IMG/VR virus record: IMGVR_UViG_3300040801_005051
Location: 1 to 43,210 of that record
Length of the DNA stretch: 43,210 nt
Reading direction: 5' to 3' (one strand)
Origin: a virus
The number at the start of each line of letters is the position of its first letter. The first letter of the stretch is position 1. Under the pieces are notes generated by a model. It did no database searches and was not told the origin of the DNA. It saw nothing but the letters and a program-made list of their open reading frames with translations. Positions 29,767 through 43,171 of the stretch are shown here, piece by piece. The position numbers were made by a program, and so were the translations under genes.

Positions 29767-29900
29767 CGTCACATCTCCCGCAGACATCGCCGGTTACGGC
29801 AGTCGGAAAGTTGCCCACATGCCTGCGAATCGCCTTGCTGCGGGCGGGCGCTCATGGCTGAATGTGTCTGTAAACGCAGCGCCGAAAAGGAGATAGCGCC

Positions 29901-30107
29901 ATGACAAACTTCGATGATCAAGACGGCAGCCGCGAGCTCGGCGACGTCTACCGCGCCACCGTCACTGACCTGATCGCCCGCCGCGAGGCAGGCACTTTCG
30001 CCTTCTTCGCCGACTCGATCGAGGACGCCCGCGAGAAGGCCTGGCGCATCGCCGGCCACCGCAACGGCAGCGACATCCACGTCCGCGTCGAGCGCGGCAA
30101 CACCTGA
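29901..30107 (+). CDS. Small unknown protein, first gene of plus-strand cassette
   Basis: A 68-residue acidic protein (ELGDVYRATVTDLIARREAG, then SIEDAREKAWRIAGHRNG). It has an excellent Shine-Dalgarno (AAGGAGAT) eight bases before its ATG. Nothing in the sequence identifies a function. It faces away from the terminase operon and begins a row of five genes on the opposite strand. Confidence 0.65.
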   Translation: MTNFDDQDGSRELGDVYRATVTDLIARREAGTFAFFADSIEDAREKAWRIAGHRNGSDIHVRVERGNT

Positions 30108-30134
30108 ATCCACCTCACCACCCGGAGCCCTGCT

Positions 30135-30404
30135 GTGCAGACACGACGCATCGAGCTTGAAGGCGACGCCGGCAACGTCGCGATCGAACGCCCACGCGGC
30201 AGCGACACCATCCGCATCGACAGCACCATCCGCGACCCGAAGCGCGGGGAGCGGGCCTGGAAGACGTGGGAACTGCCTGCCCGGACCAGCGACGAGGACC
30301 TCTTCAACGTCGCCGCCGAGGTGCAGCGCCGCACGGACGGACATCGCGGCACCAACAGCATGGTCCACGACTACTACCGCGAGATGCAGCGTTTCCAAGC
30401 CTGA
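30135..30404 (+). CDS. Unknown small protein of the plus-strand cassette
   Basis: An 89-residue protein starting at GTG with a GGAG element upstream (CGGAGCCC). It opens with beta strands (RRIELEGDAGNVAIERPRG) and ends with a charged helix (MVHDYYREMQRFQA). No family is recognised. It lies 27 bp after the first cassette gene. Confidence 0.55.
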   Translation: MQTRRIELEGDAGNVAIERPRGSDTIRIDSTIRDPKRGERAWKTWELPARTSDEDLFNVAAEVQRRTDGHRGTNSMVHDYYREMQRFQA

Positions 30405-30425
30405 ACCAGAAAGGACCGCACCACC

Positions 30426-30662
30426 ATGCCCAAGCAGACCGCACGCGATCTCTACGACGAACGCCGCGAAGACATCGCCCGCGTCCTGGACTGGATCGAG
30501 CTCGAACTCGAAAAGCACAGGATCAACGCGAAGGCCAACCCCGCCGACTGGGGCTACGCGGGTGACCTCGGGCACGTCCGGGAGAAGTTGATCGAGACGC
30601 TCGCCTTCCTCTCCAACAACGAGCTGCAAGAGATCGAAGACCTGCTCAGCGAATGTCGCTGA
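30426..30662 (+). CDS. Small helical protein of the plus-strand cassette
   Basis: A 78-residue, strongly helical acidic protein (RREDIARVLDWIELELEKH, then LIETLAFLSNNELQEIEDLL). No domain is recognised. A GAAAGGA element lies 14 nt upstream. It sits 21 bp after the GTG-start gene, so it is probably co-transcribed. Confidence 0.6.
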   Translation: MPKQTARDLYDERREDIARVLDWIELELEKHRINAKANPADWGYAGDLGHVREKLIETLAFLSNNELQEIEDLLSECR

Positions 30663-30698
30663 GCATTTTTGTTTCACCCTCCAACCAGGAGAACCGCA

Positions 30699-31316
30699 AT
30701 GCAGAGAGACCAGATTCAGATCGGCAACACGTACACCGCGAAGGTCACCGACAAGGTCGTGCCCGTTCGCATCGACGCCGAGGATCCCAATGGCGGATGG
30801 ACGGCAACCAACCTCGTCACCAACAAGAAGGTGCGGATCAAGACCGCCCAACGCCTCCGCGAAGAGGTGAGGGCCGACACGGCTGCGGTCAAGCGACCGG
30901 TCAGGAAGAAGCTGGCCGCCGCCGAGCGCCAAGCGCTGCGGGCCCAGCACAAGGCCGACCAGGAGAACGCCCGCGTCCGGGACGAGCGGGCCAGGGCCAA
31001 GGACGGCATGACCGACAGCGAACGTGCGATGGCCGAGAGCGCCCCGCAGAAGAGCATGGGCGTCGCCAAGCCCGCGAAGCCGAAGAAGGCCAGCGGACTC
31101 GACGCGGCGTTCGAGGTCCTGAAGAAGGCCAAGGAGCCGATGGCCAGCAAGGACATCGTCGAGAAGATGCTCGCCGATGGGATGTGGAGCACGGACGGCA
31201 AGACGCCGCACGCCACCATCTACGCCGCCATGGTTCGCGAGATTCAGAGCAAGGGCAAGGACGCGCGGTTCATCAAGATCGAGCGCGGCCGCTTCGCCGC
31301 CGGGAAGGGAGCGTGA
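30699..31316 (+). CDS. HARE-HTH domain protein
   Basis: A 205-residue protein. Residues 1-55 form a small beta domain (IQIGNTYTAKVTDKVVPV), residues 60-125 are charged and helical, and residues about 135-200 form a HARE-HTH winged helix (LDAAFEVLKKAKEPMASKDI, then TPHATIYAAMVREI). This domain links chromatin, restriction and transcription proteins, so DNA-related regulation is likely. The ATG at 30699 has an AGGAG Shine-Dalgarno; an upstream in-frame start at 30669 was rejected. Confidence 0.8.
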   Translation: MQRDQIQIGNTYTAKVTDKVVPVRIDAEDPNGGWTATNLVTNKKVRIKTAQRLREEVRADTAAVKRPVRKKLAAAERQALRAQHKADQENARVRDERARAKDGMTDSERAMAESAPQKSMGVAKPAKPKKASGLDAAFEVLKKAKEPMASKDIVEKMLADGMWSTDGKTPHATIYAAMVREIQSKGKDARFIKIERGRFAAGKGA

Positions 31317-31319
31317 ACC

Positions 31320-31679
31320 TTGCCACGCACTCGCCCACGCCAGCGGGACGCGACCTTCCGCGTCCTCGATGACCACCTGGAGATGACGGTCAGCTTCCCG
31401 GACGCCCCCGACCGGTCGTACACCCACCGATGCTCGCGCGACATCTTCCGCGACGTCGCCCACACCATCCAAGAGCGGGCGGCTGGCGGCGCGACGCTCG
31501 AAGAACTGGTCGAAGCGATGGACGCCCCGTACTCCCAGGTCAACGTCGCCTTGGCGTTTTTGAAGGAACGGGGGTGCGTCGAGGTTCGCCGTCGGCGCAC
31601 CTTTCCGGCATCGGCCTGGGTGTACGAGGACGCCATGACAGAGTTCATGTACCTGGCGGGATCTCCCGAGGCTGACTGA
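31320..31679 (+). CDS. Winged-helix-like small protein, last gene of cassette
   Basis: A 119-residue protein starting at TTG 3 bp after the HARE-HTH stop, with GGGAG eight bases before. Residues about 40-95 look like a winged helix (ATLEELVEAMDAPYSQVNVALAFLKERG). It converges on the methyltransferase gene with only 2 bp between stops and no visible terminator. A regulatory role is inferred. Confidence 0.6.
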   Translation: MPRTRPRQRDATFRVLDDHLEMTVSFPDAPDRSYTHRCSRDIFRDVAHTIQERAAGGATLEELVEAMDAPYSQVNVALAFLKERGCVEVRRRRTFPASAWVYEDAMTEFMYLAGSPEAD

Positions 31680-31681
31680 CC

Positions 31682-33070
31682 TCACGCCCGCACCCCCGCG
31701 CCCGCCGCGACAGCCCCGGCCACCGTCGGGGTTGTCTCAGTCTGGATCGCAACCACGCCCGGGGTTCGCTCCGCCTTCTTCCCGGTGAACTGCTCCCACC
31801 GCTGAACGATGACGTCGCAGTAGGGCGGGTCGAGCTCCATCAGGTAAGCGCTGCGACCCGTTTGCTCCGCTGCCATCAGCGTGCTGCCGCTGCCGCCGAA
31901 CAGGTCGAGCACGTTCTCGCCAGCCAGCGACGAGTACTGCAGCGCCCGCACGGCCAGCTCGACGGGCTTCTCGGTCAAATGCACCATCGACTGCGGGTTG
32001 ACCTTCTTGACCGACCACACGTCCGCAGCGTTGTTGGGCCCGTAGAACTGGTGCGCGGCCCCGGCGCGCCAGCCGTAGAAGCACCATTCGTGGTTGCCCA
32101 TGAAGTCCTTCCTGGTCAGCACCGGGTGCTCCTTCACCCAGATCAGCGCCTGCGAGAAGTACAGATCGTGCTTCTTCAGGAACGGTGGGTAGTTGGCGCA
32201 GTTGGCGTAGCCGCCCCAGATGTAAAACGCGCGGCCGGGCGCGAGCACGCGTGCGATGTTGCCGAACCACGCGTCCAGCAGGTGGTCGAACTGCTCGTCG
32301 GTGACGAAGTCGTTTTCGAGCGGCCGGTCCTTGGCCCGCATCTGTTTGTGCGTGGGCTTGCTCTTCTCCGGGTGGCGGGCCAGGTCGAGCTTCTGGTGAT
32401 GGCCTGCGGAGCCTTTCGCCTTGGCCTTGGCGAACGACGAGTTGCCGGCGGCGATCGCGTTGTTCGAGCGCGGCTCGACCTTCACGTTGTAGGGCGGGTC
32501 GGTGTTGCACACGTGGACGACCTGGCCGTCTAGCAGGCGGTCGACGTGCTGCGGGTTGCTGCTGTCGGCGCACAGCAGGCGGTGGTTGCCCAGCACCCAC
32601 AGGTCGCCGGGCTGCGTGGTGGCTCCGTCCGGCGGCGAGGGCACATCGTCGGGATCGGTCAGCCCCGACTGCACGTCGCCGGACATCAGCCGCGTCAGCT
32701 CCTGCGGGTCGAAGCCCAGCAGCCCGAGGTCGAAATCGAGCTGCTCGAGGCCCGCCAGTTCGACCGGTAGCAGCTCGTAATCCCACTCGGCGATGGCGGC
32801 GGTCTGGTTGTCGGCGATGCGGTACGCCTTGATCTGCGCTTCGCTGAGGTCGGTGGCGACGTGGACCGGCACCTTGGCCAGACCCAGCTTCTTCGCCGCC
32901 TTCCAGCGGGTGTGCCCGACGATGATCACGCCGTCCGCGTCGACGACGACGGGCTGGCGAAAGCCGAACTCCCGCAGGCTGGCGGCCACGGCGTCCACCG
33001 CCTCGTCGTTCTGGCGGGGGTTGCCCGGGTAGGGCTGGACCTGGTCGGTGTCACGCAACTCAATCTTCAT
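31682..33070 (-). CDS. ParB-N / DNA methyltransferase fusion
   Basis: A 462-residue protein. Residues 1-110 are a ParB/Srx-like domain (YPGNPRQND, VVVDADGVIIVGHTRWKAAK). The rest is a beta-class amino methyltransferase with motif IV DPPY at 191-194 and motif I FGGSGST near 391-396. Such fusions occur widely in phages and modify adenine or cytosine N4 in phage DNA, protecting it from host restriction or controlling packaging. The ATG at 33070 is preceded by AAGGGA; the longer ORF start is unlikely. Confidence 0.9.
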   Translation of the reverse strand: MKIELRDTDQVQPYPGNPRQNDEAVDAVAASLREFGFRQPVVVDADGVIIVGHTRWKAAKKLGLAKVPVHVATDLSEAQIKAYRIADNQTAAIAEWDYELLPVELAGLEQLDFDLGLLGFDPQELTRLMSGDVQSGLTDPDDVPSPPDGATTQPGDLWVLGNHRLLCADSSNPQHVDRLLDGQVVHVCNTDPPYNVKVEPRSNNAIAAGNSSFAKAKAKGSAGHHQKLDLARHPEKSKPTHKQMRAKDRPLENDFVTDEQFDHLLDAWFGNIARVLAPGRAFYIWGGYANCANYPPFLKKHDLYFSQALIWVKEHPVLTRKDFMGNHEWCFYGWRAGAAHQFYGPNNAADVWSVKKVNPQSMVHLTEKPVELAVRALQYSSLAGENVLDLFGGSGSTLMAAEQTGRSAYLMELDPPYCDVIVQRWEQFTGKKAERTPGVVAIQTETTPTVAGAVAAGAGVRA

Positions 33071-33323
33071 GGCGAATCCCTTCGTGAAAGAAAGTCTGTC
33101 CGGTATGGCCGCCGTTCCCGCCGGCATCTCCTGCGTTTCGCGGCCGGGAAGGAACCATGCTCAGGCCGGCCCGCCTGCCACACTGGCACGCGACGCACGC
33201 CGCCCGACGTTGGCCCGTGTTGGGCCGGGGCGGGGGTTGGGAGGTGGCGTCGACCCTCGGCGTGGAACGCGGCGTGGGCCAACGACGCGGCCCGTTGCCG
33301 CCTCGCCCCCTGGGGTGCCGATA

Positions 33324-33515
33324 TGTTTTGTGCGCGTCCGTCCGGTCGCGGGGCACGCCTGGCCCGTTCGTTATGTTTTGTGTGCGCCCCTTTAGGGGGC
33401 GCACAAAACAAAACGAACCAGGCGTGCGGCTTGTGTTTTGTGCGCCTCCGCGAGCGCACAAAACTAAACGCCGAAGCCGATCTTTTTGGCGCACAAAACA
33501 CGTCACAAAACACGT
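33324..33515. repeat. Cluster of inverted and direct GCGCACAAAAC repeats
   Basis: Five exact copies of the 11-mer GCGCACAAAAC or its complement occur at 33325-33335, 33399-33409, 33435-33445, 33454-33464 and 33489-33499, plus degenerate copies at 33375-33387 and 33504-33511. Copies at 33435-33464 form a perfect 11-bp stem with an 8-nt loop. At the right end, CACAAAACACGT is repeated twice in tandem (33492-33515). This fills the second half of the 447-bp gap 33,071-33,517. The first half (33,071-33,320) shows no gene, only a 9-bp inverted pair (GTTGGCCC near 33209 and GGGCCAAC near 33276). Confidence 0.8.
33353..33427. repeat. Long imperfect palindrome inside the repeat cluster
   Basis: The left arm begins GCACGCCTGG at 33353 and the right arm ends CCAGGCGTGC at 33427. 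In between, CGTT...TGTTTTGTG...GCGCCCC pairs with GGGGCGC...CACAAAACA...AACG around a TTTA loop, with a few bulges. The element is 75 bp long and could extrude as a hairpin or serve as a replication or regulatory site. Confidence 0.65.
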
Positions 33516-33517
33516 CC

Positions 33518-35533
33518 TCACGGGGTGGCCTCCTGCTCTGGAGGTGTCGCGGCGCGGCGGTAGGTGAACGGCGAGTTGCGGCCGCCCGACCCCTCGCGGT
33601 GCATCAGCCCGTCGGCGTCGGCCATCCGCAGCAGGTTGTCCGCCGCCCACCGCGACAGGCCCGCCTGCACGGCCTTGCCGATCAGCGACGACCGGGTGGC
33701 CGGCTCGCCGTCGACGAACGCCTGCACGAACGCCTGGGGCGTCCACTCGTCCTTTTTCTCGCCCCGCTTCTTGCCGCCCTCGGACCGCAGCTGCGACGGG
33801 TCGAGGTCGTCGGCGGCGTACCAGACCGGGAACGACCACCGCAGGCACCGCGGCGACACCGGCGGCCACGAGCGAACCGCCGCGTCTAGCACGACCGCGT
33901 CGTCCTCCTCGTGCGACCGCAGCACGACGTGCGTGTCGGTGGCCCGGCTCTGGCTGCCGGCCCCCGCCCCGACGTCGGTGACGCTCTTGGCCGACTGGCT
34001 GCCCTTGGTGGTGTGGTGGATCAGGACGAACGAGCAGCCCAGCCGGTCCGCGTAGAGGTCCAGGTGGTTGTAGAGCGACGCCATCGTGCCGTTGTCGTTC
34101 TCGTCCATGTCCCGGGGCATGAACCTGTAGAAGGCGTCGAGGATGATCACGCGGTAGCGGCCGGGCTCGACGCTCTGGAAGAACGCGCCCAGGGTGTAGA
34201 CGTCCTTGAGCCCGCCCCGCAGGTTGTGCACGAACACCCGGTCGGCGTAGGCGTCGGCGGGGATGCCTCGCGCTTCTGCGACCTTCGGGATGCGGTTGGC
34301 GCTGGTCTCTCGGTGCAGCTCGTTGTCGAGGATCAGCACCTCGCCGCGCTCGCAACGGAACTGCTCGAGCCAGTCGCGGCCGGTGGCCACCGCCAGGGCG
34401 AGGTCGAGCACGAGCCAGGACTTGCCCATCTTGGGGGCCGAGATCAGGTTCATGGTCTCGCCGCGGCGCAGCAGGCCGTGAATGACCGGCTGCCGCAGCT
34501 GTGGGTACTGTGCCCGCAGCTCGCGGACCGAGAGCGGCTGCGGCTGCTCGAACGGGGCCGTCGCGCCCGCTCCCACGACGGGTCCGACTGCGGTGCCTGG
34601 CGGCGACCCGAAGCCCTGGGTTCGAAGCGCCGACGCCGCACGCGACCAGTTGCCGCCGTGCTCGAGCAGCGCGTAAACCGCGAAGGGCGAGTAGGCCCGG
34701 TTGGGCTCGAAGGGATCGGCGCTCGAGCTGAAGACGTAGAAGACCCCGCCGCCGGAGCCGTCCTTCAGCGTCGCGCTCCAGCCCCGCGGCTTGCCGGGCC
34801 GTCGCCAGTACTCGTTGCCGTCGGACCCGTCCCGCACGTGCGACCACCCGTGCTGCACGAGGACCTGCCGCACGTCACCGCGGGCGTTGAATTCGTCGCC
34901 CGGACGGGCCGTCGCTTCCGCGGCCAGCGCCGCCTTGGCCCCATTGACCACTGGCGGCACGTACTCGTTGAGCTCCCACGCCGCCTGCAGCAGCGCGTCG
35001 CGCTCGGCCTCTGTGAGCGTCGGCAGGCTGAGCAGGTCGCCCTGCACCATCTCGTACCCGTCGGTGGGCGCGCACAGGAACAGGCCGCCTTCGCCGCGGG
35101 TTTCGATCAGCGTGACGACCTTCCCGCCGCCGCCAGAACGGCGCTGGGCCAGCTTGAGGTTGCCGCAAACCTCCGACTCGGACTGGTACACGGCGTGGTA
35201 GCCGCCCGACGGCGTCCGCTCCACCGACAGGCGGTCTCGCAGCTCGGGCGGAACGCGGCGACACCACGCGTCGAAGAGCTCGCCGCCGGCGTCGAAGTCG
35301 ATGATCTCGGTGTTGCCCGACACCCCGCCGCAGAGCACACACACCGCGTCGTGCGCGTTGGCGAACCAGCCCGAGACCTCTGCCGGGGTCGGCGGGCGCT
35401 GGCGGTACTGCTTCCACGCCCCGATCGCCGGCCGCTTCTCGGCGCGCCGGGCCGGGAGCACGGCCAGGCCGGCCTGCTGATACGCGACGGCGGCGTCGCG
35501 GAGGCTCGTCGTCGGCGGTGCGTCTCCGATCAA
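33518..35533 (-). CDS. Bifunctional primase-polymerase with RepA-type ATPase
   Basis: A 671-residue replication protein. The N-terminal prim-pol domain has DFD at 79-81 and SGGYH at 109-113. The middle is a linker. The RecA-like AAA_25 helicase domain has Walker A APKMGKSW at 366-373, Walker B RVIILDAFYRF at about 461-471 and IHHTTKG. The TTG at 35533 overlaps the helicase stop (TTGA) and is preceded by GAGG seven bases upstream. It would prime and unwind phage DNA at the origin. The adjacent repeat cluster lies just beyond its 3' end. Confidence 0.88.
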   Translation of the reverse strand: MIGDAPPTTSLRDAAVAYQQAGLAVLPARRAEKRPAIGAWKQYRQRPPTPAEVSGWFANAHDAVCVLCGGVSGNTEIIDFDAGGELFDAWCRRVPPELRDRLSVERTPSGGYHAVYQSESEVCGNLKLAQRRSGGGGKVVTLIETRGEGGLFLCAPTDGYEMVQGDLLSLPTLTEAERDALLQAAWELNEYVPPVVNGAKAALAAEATARPGDEFNARGDVRQVLVQHGWSHVRDGSDGNEYWRRPGKPRGWSATLKDGSGGGVFYVFSSSADPFEPNRAYSPFAVYALLEHGGNWSRAASALRTQGFGSPPGTAVGPVVGAGATAPFEQPQPLSVRELRAQYPQLRQPVIHGLLRRGETMNLISAPKMGKSWLVLDLALAVATGRDWLEQFRCERGEVLILDNELHRETSANRIPKVAEARGIPADAYADRVFVHNLRGGLKDVYTLGAFFQSVEPGRYRVIILDAFYRFMPRDMDENDNGTMASLYNHLDLYADRLGCSFVLIHHTTKGSQSAKSVTDVGAGAGSQSRATDTHVVLRSHEEDDAVVLDAAVRSWPPVSPRCLRWSFPVWYAADDLDPSQLRSEGGKKRGEKKDEWTPQAFVQAFVDGEPATRSSLIGKAVQAGLSRWAADNLLRMADADGLMHREGSGGRNSPFTYRRAATPPEQEATP

Positions 35534-41369: not shown

Positions 41370-41608
41370 ACAGCGTGAAAGATGCCGATGGAGCCGCAGA
41401 TTCCACTGGATTGATGTCGCCCTCTGAGCAAGGGTGTCCATCGCCCGGCGCGCGGGCCTGGGTCAGCGATGAAGCGATCGAGGACACGCGCCGGGTCTGG
41501 TCGCCGTACTACGGCCGGGAACTGACCGACGGCGAGGCGGTCGAGATCCTGACCAACGTCCGCAACCTCGCCCAAGCCCTGGTGAAGGCCAGAAGGAGCA
41601 CCGAATGA
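41366..41608 (+). CDS. Small protein coupled to the serine recombinase
   Basis: This starts at TTG overlapping the sigma-like stop (TTGA), with a perfect GGAGG (41354-41358) seven bases upstream. The product of 80 residues ends in a compact helical domain (ELTDGEAVEILTNVRNLAQAL). Its stop overlaps the recombinase ATG. It may be a directionality or accessory factor for recombination; that is inferred only from position. Confidence 0.65.
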   Translation: MNSVKDADGAADSTGLMSPSEQGCPSPGARAWVSDEAIEDTRRVWSPYYGRELTDGEAVEILTNVRNLAQALVKARRSTE

Positions 41609-43116
41609 CCAACTGCGTGATCTGGGCACGCGTGTCCTCGCGGGAACAGCGGGAGGGGTACTCCATCGACGCCCAGCTCCGCGTCAACCGCGAGAAGGCC
41701 GAGAAGGAAGGCTGGAAGATCGCCCGCGAGTTCGTCGTCGCCGAGTCCGCCAAGCGCGGGGCCGAACGCGTCGCGTTCAACGAGATGATCAAATGGGTCA
41801 AGGCCAACGCCCGCAAAGAGAAGATCGGCTACATCCTCGCTCACAAGCTCGACCGCGCCTGCCGCAACATGCGCGACGCGGTGCGGATGCAGGAACTCGA
41901 AGACGCCTGCGGCGTGCAGCTCGCCTTCGTCGAGAACCACTTCGGCCCGGGGGCGGCGGGGGCGCTGTCGTTCAACGTCATGGCCGCCGTCGCGCAGTAC
42001 TACTCGGACAACCTCCGCAACGAGGTGCTCAAGGGGATCGAGGAGAAGGTCCGCCAGGGCTGGGCCCCGGGCCTCGCCGCGTACGGCTACCGCAACGTCA
42101 AGGGGGACCGCGAGGAGCCGATCCAACCGCACCCGACCAACGCGCTGGCCGTGCAGCGGATCTTCGAGCTCTACCAGACGGGCCTCCACACGTTCGAGGA
42201 GATCGCCGACACCCTCGAGCACGAAGGCTTCGTCTACCGCCGCAGCGCCCCGCGCTTCTCGCGGACCGGCATCTCCTACATCCTCAACAACCCCTTCTAC
42301 ATGGGGCTCGTCAGCTTCCGCGGCCAGACGTACCCGGGCCGGCACCTGCCGATCGTCGACATGGACGTCTTCCACCGGTGCCAGGACATCCTCAAAGGCA
42401 AGAACCGACGGTCGCGGAAGGTCAACCACTACCTCGCCGGCGGCATGTTCGTCTGCTCCCACTGCGGCTACGGGATCACCGGCGAGCGCATCCGCCGCCG
42501 GATGAAGAGCGGCACCGTCCACGAGTACACCTACTACCGATGCGGGAACATCCACCCCAGCCCCGACCATCCCAAGGTCCGCTGGCGCGAGGAGCAGTTG
42601 GAGCAAGCGGTGGAGCAGGACCTGCTGCGCCTGCGGATCCCCGACGACGAGCGCCGCGACTGGTTCCGCCGCCACCTCGTCGAGGCGTGCGACAGCGAGA
42701 CGCGGCTGCGGAAGGAGCGCATCCGCCAGGCCCGCAAGCGGCTGACCGACATCGAGCAGATGCAGGAACGCCTGCTCGACGGGTTCCTCGGCGGCGCGAT
42801 CGACCAGAAGACGTTCAACTCCCGCCGCGCCGCGATGCAGGTCGAGGCCGAGCGGCTCACGCAGGAACTGGAAGACGACACCGCCCGGCAGGACGACGCG
42901 GGCGTGGGCGAATACGTGGTGGCGATGTTCGATTTCGCCCAGGACGCGGCCGAGCGATGGAGAGTTTCAAAGAAGTCGGACCGGCGGGCGATCTTGGCCC
43001 GACTTTTATTGAAACGGTCATTGAGCGACGTAAGTCTCGACACCGTAAAGAGAAGGCCCTTCGACGTGCTCGCCGAAGGGCCTATTTCTCACGAAAGTCG
43101 GGGCGACAGGATTTGA
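41605..43116 (+). CDS. Large serine recombinase (integrase)
   Basis: A 503-residue site-specific recombinase. Residues 1-150 are the resolvase catalytic domain (WARVSSREQREGYSIDAQ, with the nucleophilic serine at about 11-12). Residues about 165-270 are the recombinase domain, and 285-330 the zinc ribbon (FVCSHCGY...YYRCGN). The rest is a coiled coil and C-terminal tail. The last codons run into the 3' end of the tRNA-Pro gene on the other strand, which marks the integration end. It would integrate and excise the element. Confidence 0.93.
   Translation: MTNCVIWARVSSREQREGYSIDAQLRVNREKAEKEGWKIAREFVVAESAKRGAERVAFNEMIKWVKANARKEKIGYILAHKLDRACRNMRDAVRMQELEDACGVQLAFVENHFGPGAAGALSFNVMAAVAQYYSDNLRNEVLKGIEEKVRQGWAPGLAAYGYRNVKGDREEPIQPHPTNALAVQRIFELYQTGLHTFEEIADTLEHEGFVYRRSAPRFSRTGISYILNNPFYMGLVSFRGQTYPGRHLPIVDMDVFHRCQDILKGKNRRSRKVNHYLAGGMFVCSHCGYGITGERIRRRMKSGTVHEYTYYRCGNIHPSPDHPKVRWREEQLEQAVEQDLLRLRIPDDERRDWFRRHLVEACDSETRLRKERIRQARKRLTDIEQMQERLLDGFLGGAIDQKTFNSRRAAMQVEAERLTQELEDDTARQDDAGVGEYVVAMFDFAQDAAERWRVSKKSDRRAILARLLLKRSLSDVSLDTVKRRPFDVLAEGPISHESRGDRI
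43054..43083. terminator. Hairpin terminator overlapping the recombinase 3' end
   Basis: A perfect 10-bp stem, AGGCCCTTCG and CGAAGGGCCT, with a 10-nt loop. On the minus strand it is followed by TCTCTTT and would terminate tRNA-Pro transcription. It lies inside the last recombinase codons (the RPFDVLAEG segment), so the same bases serve as coding sequence and as terminator. Confidence 0.7.
43098..43116. other. Probable attachment site core at tRNA-Pro 3' end
   Basis: The last bases of the tRNA-Pro gene also encode the recombinase C-terminus, and an intact tRNA remains. This is the typical result of insertion at the 3' end of a tRNA gene. A matching left copy was searched for by eye from 1 to 13,300 and not found. 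Confidence 0.5.
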
Positions 43117-43171
43117 ACCTGCGGCCTCCTGCTCCCAAAGCAGGCGCTCTGCCAAGCTGAGCTACGCCCCG
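43098..43171 (-). tRNA. tRNA-Pro (anticodon TGG)
   Basis: A 74-nt tRNA on the minus strand: acceptor arms CGGGGCG and CGCCCCG with discriminator A, a D arm beginning GCTCAG, an anticodon loop TTTGGGA with anticodon TGG, and a T arm with GGTTCAAATCC. The 3' CCA is not encoded. Its 3' end overlaps the recombinase gene by 19 bp. The 39 bases to its right are host flank with no visible feature. Confidence 0.95.

Follow-up and report, generated by a model that had tools for sequence, protein, structure and literature searches.

A repeat and hairpin array behind a prim-pol helicase gene is a probable phage replication origin with relatives in Planctomycetota genomes

In the pRN1 family, the replication protein ORF904 consists of a prim-pol, a helicase and a winged helix, and a stem-loop origin lies directly downstream of its gene; the same account describes that the pRN1 replication protein showed no specific binding to its stem-loop, and itself proposes the same arrangement for the phages BIP-1 and BPP-1 (PMC4234260). 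For RSF1010 (IncQ), the RepA helicase, the AEP primase RepB', the iteron binder RepC and the ssiA and ssiB hairpins have been described (PMC4538821, PMC4234260). The alpha protein of P4 carries a primase, a helicase and a C-terminal winged helix, which binds the origin repeats, in one polypeptide (PMC4234260). In the PLE satellites of Vibrio cholerae, a RepA_N domain and the origin iterons are swapped as a module, and their cognate pairing was demonstrated experimentally (PMC8263062).

The window examined in this study, namely the whole stretch of 43,210 bases, is an IMG/VR virus record. A sequence-only reading had pointed to a cluster of repeats and hairpins directly after a prim-pol gene, and indeed the array begins 2 bp past the stop codon of that gene. 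The flanking genes had been taken as prim-pol and ParB_N/methyltransferase genes, with which the domain matches agree. In the initiator encoded by the prim-pol gene, Pfam found Prim-Pol at residues 15-163 and AAA_25 at residues 330-512, and no domain in the last ~65 residues. When a profile of 25 relatives was compared with the PDB, matches to RSF1010 RepA (1g8y, E 1.6e-13) and to the pRN1 ORF904 prim-pol (E 3e-9) were obtained, and the RSF1010 RepA structures 1olo, 1nlf and 1g8y were the best Foldseek matches. The C-terminus showed a helix-helix-helix-strand-strand order in two AlphaFold2 models (pLDDT about 90 and mean 84), and Foldseek matched this domain to winged helices of the Fur, YodB, HypR and MarR types with a probability of 0.91-1 and weak E values of 0.04-0.2, together with some unrelated matches. 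A sequence profile of the domain gave a best E of 0.096 against the PDB and matched no P4 chain at E up to 5. The domain is predicted from these models to be a winged helix, and the initiator is a chimera in which a prim-pol of the pRN1 ORF904 type and a helicase of the RSF1010 RepA type are joined to this predicted C-terminal winged helix.

The locus resembles pRN1 in the kind of prim-pol, as recognized by the profile match, and in the predicted C-terminal winged helix; as in pRN1, a large hairpin with poorly conserved sequence and conserved pairing lies directly behind the gene (PMC4234260). However, the published description of pRN1 gives an SF3 helicase and no iterons (PMC4234260), whereas the window combines an AAA_25, RepA-like helicase with an iteron array, the unit of which changes with the winged helix. 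With RSF1010 the locus shares a homologous hexameric helicase of the RepA type as well as iterons and hairpins as origin parts, although one fused protein stands here in place of three separate ones, among them the RepB' primase and the RepC initiator. As in P4 alpha, primase, helicase and C-terminal winged helix (predicted here) are joined in one protein, but P4 alpha has a bacterial Toprim-type primase and the window's initiator an AEP Prim-Pol. As in PLE, iterons and DNA-binding domain vary together and are swapped, here as judged by sequence comparison. The initiators of the two are nevertheless unrelated: Pfam found no RepA_N domain in the window's initiator, and the DNA-binding domain, N-terminal in PLE, is here C-terminal and beside the array. 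By analogy, the proposed origin most likely works like RSF1010 and like pRN1, with all the defining features of neither. The PER element of the Streptococcus thermophilus phage Sfi21 sits behind a primase gene. It is a short non-coding replication origin activated by infection, so that PER and the window's array are both short non-coding phage elements, PER being an origin in a different phage (PMC6356513).

The 11-mer GCGCACAAAAC occurred in five exact copies, as the sequence-only reading had counted, and in a sixth copy with one mismatch, all within 33325-33499 (Table 1). When the whole window was scanned with up to one mismatch, six matches were observed against 1.12 expected and a maximum of 4 in 100 shuffles; all six fell in 175 bp of the array, and none was found outside it in the 43,210 bases. 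The alternating orientation described for the copies holds in part only, since with the sixth copy included the order is -,-,+,-,+,+. The perfect 11-bp stem, the 75-bp imperfect palindrome and the tandem 12-mer of the same description were all recovered, and 24-nt inverted arms (33366-33389 and 33395-33418) were 88% matched. The repeat-pair score of the first 250 nt past the stop was 87, whereas 200 dinucleotide shuffles averaged 3.4 and did not exceed 9, and the single-strand folding z of the array was -8.0 and -7.8 for the two DNA strands and -9.05 for RNA. As expected of an iteron origin, several copies of a short unit were gathered in one non-coding cluster adjoining an initiator gene.

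Table 1 Coordinates of the array, its parts and the neighbouring features in the window.
Feature	Position	Strand	Basis
Iteron array, proposed replication origin	33320-33516	-	Repeat score, folding, position kept in relatives
Repeat unit, exact	33325-33335	-	GCGCACAAAAC match
Repeat unit, one mismatch	33375-33385	-	GCGCACAAAAC match
Repeat unit, exact	33399-33409	+	GCGCACAAAAC match
Repeat unit, exact; one arm of perfect 11-bp stem	33435-33445	-	GCGCACAAAAC match
Repeat unit, exact; other arm of perfect 11-bp stem	33454-33464	+	GCGCACAAAAC match
Repeat unit, exact	33489-33499	+	GCGCACAAAAC match
Tandem 12-mer, two copies (33492-33503, 33504-33515)	33492-33515	+	Second copy is a partial repeat unit
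Central extended hairpin, 32 consensus pairs, 3'-side bulge	33353-33427	-	Compensatory changes
Palindromic C/G core at hairpin tip, CCCCCTAAAGGGG on gene strand	33387-33399	-	Kept in class A and B arrays; a C-rich doublet takes its place in most other classes
Initiator/replicase gene (prim-pol helicase), 671 aa	33518-35533	-	Predicted start; AEP prim-pol, RepA-like hexameric helicase, C-terminal winged helix
Winged-helix coding region (predicted), residues about 597-660, proposed repeat reader	33554-33745	-	AlphaFold2 models, Foldseek
ParB_N and N6/N4 methyltransferase gene, neighbour of the array, not its reader	31682-33070	-	Domain matches, ParB_N comparison
Second conserved element, free of repeats, in the gap from the array to the methyltransferase start	33067-33175	-	Alignment of relatives

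The second conserved element consists of GGTTCC/GGTACT ... GCGGGAACAG ... CAGAGTTTGTTT and was found in relatives of several array classes; covarying structure was looked for in 24 aligned sequences of this element and none was found. After the methyltransferase gene, a 638-aa ORF (29769-31685, minus strand) had no Pfam or PHROGs match at 0.01, and the AT skew climbs to 0.36 across this stretch. A serine integrase gene ends beside a tRNA-Pro gene (41605-43171 of the window), and this adjacency suggests an attachment region at that end.

At 33515-33521, and at the matching position in relatives, the prim-pol stop shares bases with a start codon (ATGA or GTGA), which is often preceded by a Shine-Dalgarno-like GGAGG. 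A coding ORF through the array was considered and rejected: a frame is open into or through it in most relatives, yet no codon-position bias was observed (for 16 overlapping pairs, the substitutions counted at the three codon positions were 119/103/89 in the array and 178/84/781 in the helicase), and the indels were not confined to multiples of three. A known RNA was rejected as well. In an Rfam search of the window, tRNA alone passed the gathering score, the array being without a curated family, and the weak matches in the array, mostly to microRNA families, were far under the cut-offs and reflect the long hairpin.

The 75-nt hairpin was compared among 14 sequences of classes A and B, of which 12 are distinct; its 32 consensus pairs were formed in 96.1% of cells, compared with 34-47% in slid controls. 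Compensatory changes on both sides were observed at 17 of the 32 pairs, and none of 500 shuffles was as high. Mirrored protein sites would likewise covary within the repeat part of the hairpin; in the outer helix (columns 9-17 with 82-90), which is outside the repeat units, 6 of 9 pairs were doubly changed. The stem-loop directly 3' of the prim-pol gene, with pairing kept while the sequence varies, is of the kind found in pRN1.

Relatives were collected by a protein search, which gave 21 viral loci and 17 loci in bacterial genomes (most of them MAGs of Phycisphaerae and other Planctomycetota), and by an alignment search, which gave 60 viral loci largely repeating the first 21. The initiator signature motif was carried by 79 loci, the window included, of which 61 were distinct; 51 of these were scorable past the stop, 39 belonging to the main family and 12 being distant rows. 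An array of like architecture at the same position beat all 200 shuffles in 33 of the 39 scorable main-family loci, the other six being L037, L102, L106, L108, L111 and L117. Among the relatives compared, the origin reading thus passed the check on absence of the cluster from close relatives, which the sequence-only reading had named as a finding that would speak against it. Among the distant rows, 11 of 12 did not beat all 200 shuffles and one did. Seven named phages with related genes were also compared. Four of them (Streptococcus Javan131, Paenibacillus Hayley, Faecalibacterium FP_Lugh and Bacillus BCJA1c, the last two being L136 and L139) have an array straight after the gene, with 0 of 200 shuffles as high; there was no clear array in Arthrobacter Shambre1, Corynebacterium BFK20 and Mycobacterium Philly, for which 29, 3 and 2 of 200 shuffles, respectively, were as high.

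The repeat unit varies by lineage, being GTTTTGTG in the window's class and TTCGTGGTG, TGTGTGGTG, CGAGGTT, CGCTCRAGCGAA, GGGTYGAGCGC, GGAAC or CGCGTCGA in others. In close pairs the array is more conserved than the gene; for example, 5 of 204 positions are changed in the array between L027 and L028 versus 37 of about 600 in the gene. Initiators of the GGAAC class carry an additional C-terminal stretch, labelled helix-turn-helix-like by inspection. Extra ends of this kind were seen in eight loci (L019, L043, L102, L105, L106, L107, L111 and L115), five of them with GGAAC-type arrays and the rest with few or no repeats. Separately, the distant relatives L119-L132 (about 25% identity) have a fixed CCCCTTAAG stretch 23 bases past the stop, after which C-rich tracts and conserved hairpins are found in place of a repeat array.

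Array similarity was calculated from repeated 6-mers, independently of the array classes, which were assigned by eye for the trees. Over 43 loci, the partial rank correlation of the array with the winged helix given the helicase was 0.41 (0/1000 permutations), and that with the helicase given the winged helix was 0.11 (29/1000). The corresponding values were 0.38 (0/2000) and 0.09 (98/2000) for the 39 loci left when near-copies were removed, and 0.88 (0/2000) and -0.18 in the window's 13-member clade. When the helicases were at least 80% identical, the mean array similarity was 0.37 for pairs with winged helices at least 60% identical (73 pairs) and 0.03 for those below 60% (97 pairs). Trees of the 43 classed rows of 49, which are quick trees with few columns on the winged-helix side, required 15 changes of array class for the helicase versus 8 for the winged helix, the minimum possible being 7; with the six unclassed rows taken as a group, the changes numbered 20 and 11. 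For ParB_N (28 loci), the correlation with the array was 0.17 given the winged helix (10/2000), and that of the winged helix given ParB_N was 0.42 (0/2000). The repeat unit tracks the winged helix and neither the helicase nor the ParB_N domain encoded downstream.

The initiators of L014 and L015, two loci of a single MAG, have 84% identity in their N-terminal parts, 86% in the helicase and 45% in the winged helix, and their array classes differ; the corresponding identities of L016 and L012 are 80%, 88% and 34%. The extent of the exchanged region was followed in nucleotide identity profiles of 15 pairs, with positions given relative to the prim-pol stop. Between L101 and L097, identity was 84-98% over most of the helicase part, fell to about 37-55% from -300 to +200, and was 78-91% from +200 to +900 and 54% in the next bin, and between L014 and L015 it was 26-50% from -200 to +300 and mostly 75-89% beyond. 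Similarity returned from about +400 in L097/L102 and L023/L036, about +500 in L012/L015 and +900 in L014/L012. No clean right boundary was seen in L036/L039, L036/L021 and L041/L021, which were similar again only from +1100; L100/L101, L100/L097 and L100/L102 did not regain similarity in the compared stretch, and L102/L107 runs out of sequence. These profiles suggest that, in some pairs, the winged helix and the array were exchanged jointly as one matched cassette between well-conserved flanks. The leader, that is the gap between the array and the methyltransferase gene, gave 0.27 given the winged helix in 24 loci (2/2000), and the winged helix gave 0.40 given the leader (0/2000). Because the right boundary is unclean in some pairs and the leader keeps this correlation, physical linkage of winged helix and array accounts for part of the correlation between them.

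Three related loci with different arrays (L012/L033, L014/L031 and L015/L030) are found in one Phycisphaerales MAG, and another Phycisphaera MAG holds L027 and L028 with nearly identical arrays. These one-MAG loci bear on whether the cassette governs coexistence, and L027 and L028, with nearly one array in one MAG, argue against strict incompatibility.

We consider that the cluster is probably the phage replication origin, made up of iterons and a priming hairpin and bound by the winged helix of the initiator. The C-terminal winged helix would bind the inverted GCGCACAAAAC iterons, and this binding would load the RepA-like hexameric helicase, which would open the DNA. Subsequently, the central hairpin with its CCCCCTAAAGGGG tip would be exposed on single strands and may provide the start site for the prim-pol domain, as the ssi hairpins do for RSF1010 RepB', and the primer would then be extended by the host replisome. 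The sequence-only reading had also offered an origin, and this part is well supported by conservation, covariation and cassette exchange; its two alternatives, a binding array for the ParB domain and a non-autonomous repeat element, were not supported, as described below.

An array bound by the winged helix could instead be a control element, acting in copy-number control, in incompatibility or as a decoy, with the origin elsewhere. P4 has a second, iteron-bearing control region (crr) beside its origin, and the GC skew of the window shows no switch at the array, both of which would fit such an element. We nevertheless hold it unlikely, as there is no second array of the unit in the window, and the covarying central hairpin and its position behind the gene match the pRN1 origin as described (PMC4234260). 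The array might also regulate the downstream genes or the initiator, either as an operator or as an RNA hairpin formed in the transcript at the junction of prim-pol and methyltransferase: it lies between same-strand genes, its RNA folding z is -9.05, and covariation of the hairpin is equally expected of an RNA. RNA folding, however, does not need all units to change together in step with the predicted DNA-binding domain, and Rfam gave sub-threshold hairpin matches only, with no family at the gathering score; this kind of regulation appears slightly less likely than a control element. That winged helix and array were co-inherited merely as neighbours, without recognition, would agree with their adjacency and with the correlation kept by the leader on the other side of the array. 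Such co-inheritance is improbable in our judgement, since in some pairs the right boundary of the cassette comes soon after the array, and in the 13-member clade the winged helix reached 0.88 compared with -0.18 for the adjoining helicase.

Much less credible is a parS-like site for the ParB_N domain of the methyltransferase, to which the adjoining gene and the small correlation of 0.17 (10/2000) given the winged helix might point. The sequence of such a site should track the ParB protein, yet when ParB_N was at least 80% identical the array similarity was 0.05 for pairs with different winged helices (n=31) and 0.47 for those with winged helices alike (n=45), and L101 and L097 have different arrays despite 78-91% identity from +200 to +900, which covers the leader and the ParB_N start. 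A REP or MITE-like non-autonomous element that landed between the genes is the least probable explanation of all. Short inverted units are seen in such elements, but dispersed copies were not observed: the unit has no copies elsewhere in the window, and its position is fixed across relatives. Furthermore, the repeat was searched in host genomes, as the sequence-only reading had proposed, using ten MAGs that carry relatives and may not include the window's own host. Exact copies of GTTTTGTGCGC clustered only at prophage arrays, with 8 of 8 copies in two clusters in G001, 3 of 3 and 2 of 2 in one cluster each in G003 and G004, and 2 of 5 together in G005; in the other six MAGs 1-4 copies lay scattered, about as many as for the reversed control. 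Scattering of the cluster over unrelated intergenic regions, the other finding named against that reading, was thus absent from the window and from these MAGs.

Compared with the origin proposal, the following concerns a wider lead. The hairpin tip of classes A and B reads CCCC(C/T)TAAAGGGG or a close variant, and in 22 other distinct loci as well as L020 and L097 a C-run doublet, most commonly the 15-mer CCCCCCATACCCCCC, was found in place of the palindromic tip. A scan of viral contigs gave at least 120 stretches with CCCCCCATACCCCCC, compared with 37 for a composition-matched scramble and 111 for an AT-step-reversed version; the reversed control is not neutral, some of its matches also being in replication genes, and the scrambled control was added. 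Among the 80 CCCCCCATACCCCCC loci listed (L140-L219), 34 were preceded by an ORF of 120 aa or more, the end of which lay under 400 bases away, and the DNA polymerase/primase family phrog_906 matched 9 of these 34. Ten longer upstream ORFs examined singly included seven primases or replicative helicases (L163, L168, L171, L172, L196, L198 and L217), one terminase, one capsid and one without a match. Among the 27 upstream ORFs of the AT-reversed set, each primase or helicase family was matched by a single member. In 52 of the 80 listed loci CCCCCCATACCCCCC was spanned by an ORF of 150 aa or more, which was on the motif's strand in 39, and the leading families were those of replication initiation (phrog_9474, 10/52; phrog_2509, 6/52; phrog_270, 5/52); of the 29 such ORFs in the AT-reversed set, 5 matched primosomal families and 4 matched O-like families. 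When ten across-motif ORFs of the main set, mostly picked for strong repeats, were examined, eight matched replication initiation, primosomal or DnaD-like families and two matched nothing.

The motif was read in all three frames in the 39 same-strand ORFs (17/14/8), a few of which are probably not genes, which suggests that selection has kept the nucleotide sequence and not a proline linker; in many of these ORFs it lay at about 0.5-0.65 of the length. In L140-L219, CCCCCCATACCCCCC recurs both next to primase genes and within initiator genes of the lambda-O-like or DnaD-like kind. A local HMM from the present protein family detected 4 of the 80 CCCCCCATACCCCCC loci versus 0 of 80 in the AT-reversed set. 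Replication initiation proteins were likewise found among the 44 ORFs of the scramble set (4 each for phrog_270 and phrog_391), and C-rich stretches in initiator genes are partly a general trait; the box is therefore presented as a lead. Tentatively, and on balance with more doubt than confidence, the window's core may represent one form of an origin box that is widespread in phages and has as yet no name, a C-run doublet around an AT step, lying beside phage-specific iterons both behind AEP primase-helicase genes and inside lambda-O-like initiator genes. It might be a common priming or helicase-loading site for very different initiators, and in the window's class it would have turned into the palindrome CCCCCTAAAGGGG. 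No occurrence of the box was found in the open-licence papers searched, which by title are not on phage origins. If true, the box would allow phage origins to be located with no more than the sequence.

In the open-licence literature we found no paper on these planctomycete phage origins, which is weak evidence of absence. If the origin proposal is right, the array would be a mapped origin with a proposed reader for phages and prophages found in Planctomycetota genomes, and the relatives would form a natural series of matched and exchanged protein-DNA pairs that may reveal the recognition code used by a winged-helix initiator. Furthermore, the swapping of origin modules described for PLE satellites would extend to tailed phages, and the stem-loop model of pRN1 and the iteron model of origins would be joined in one system.
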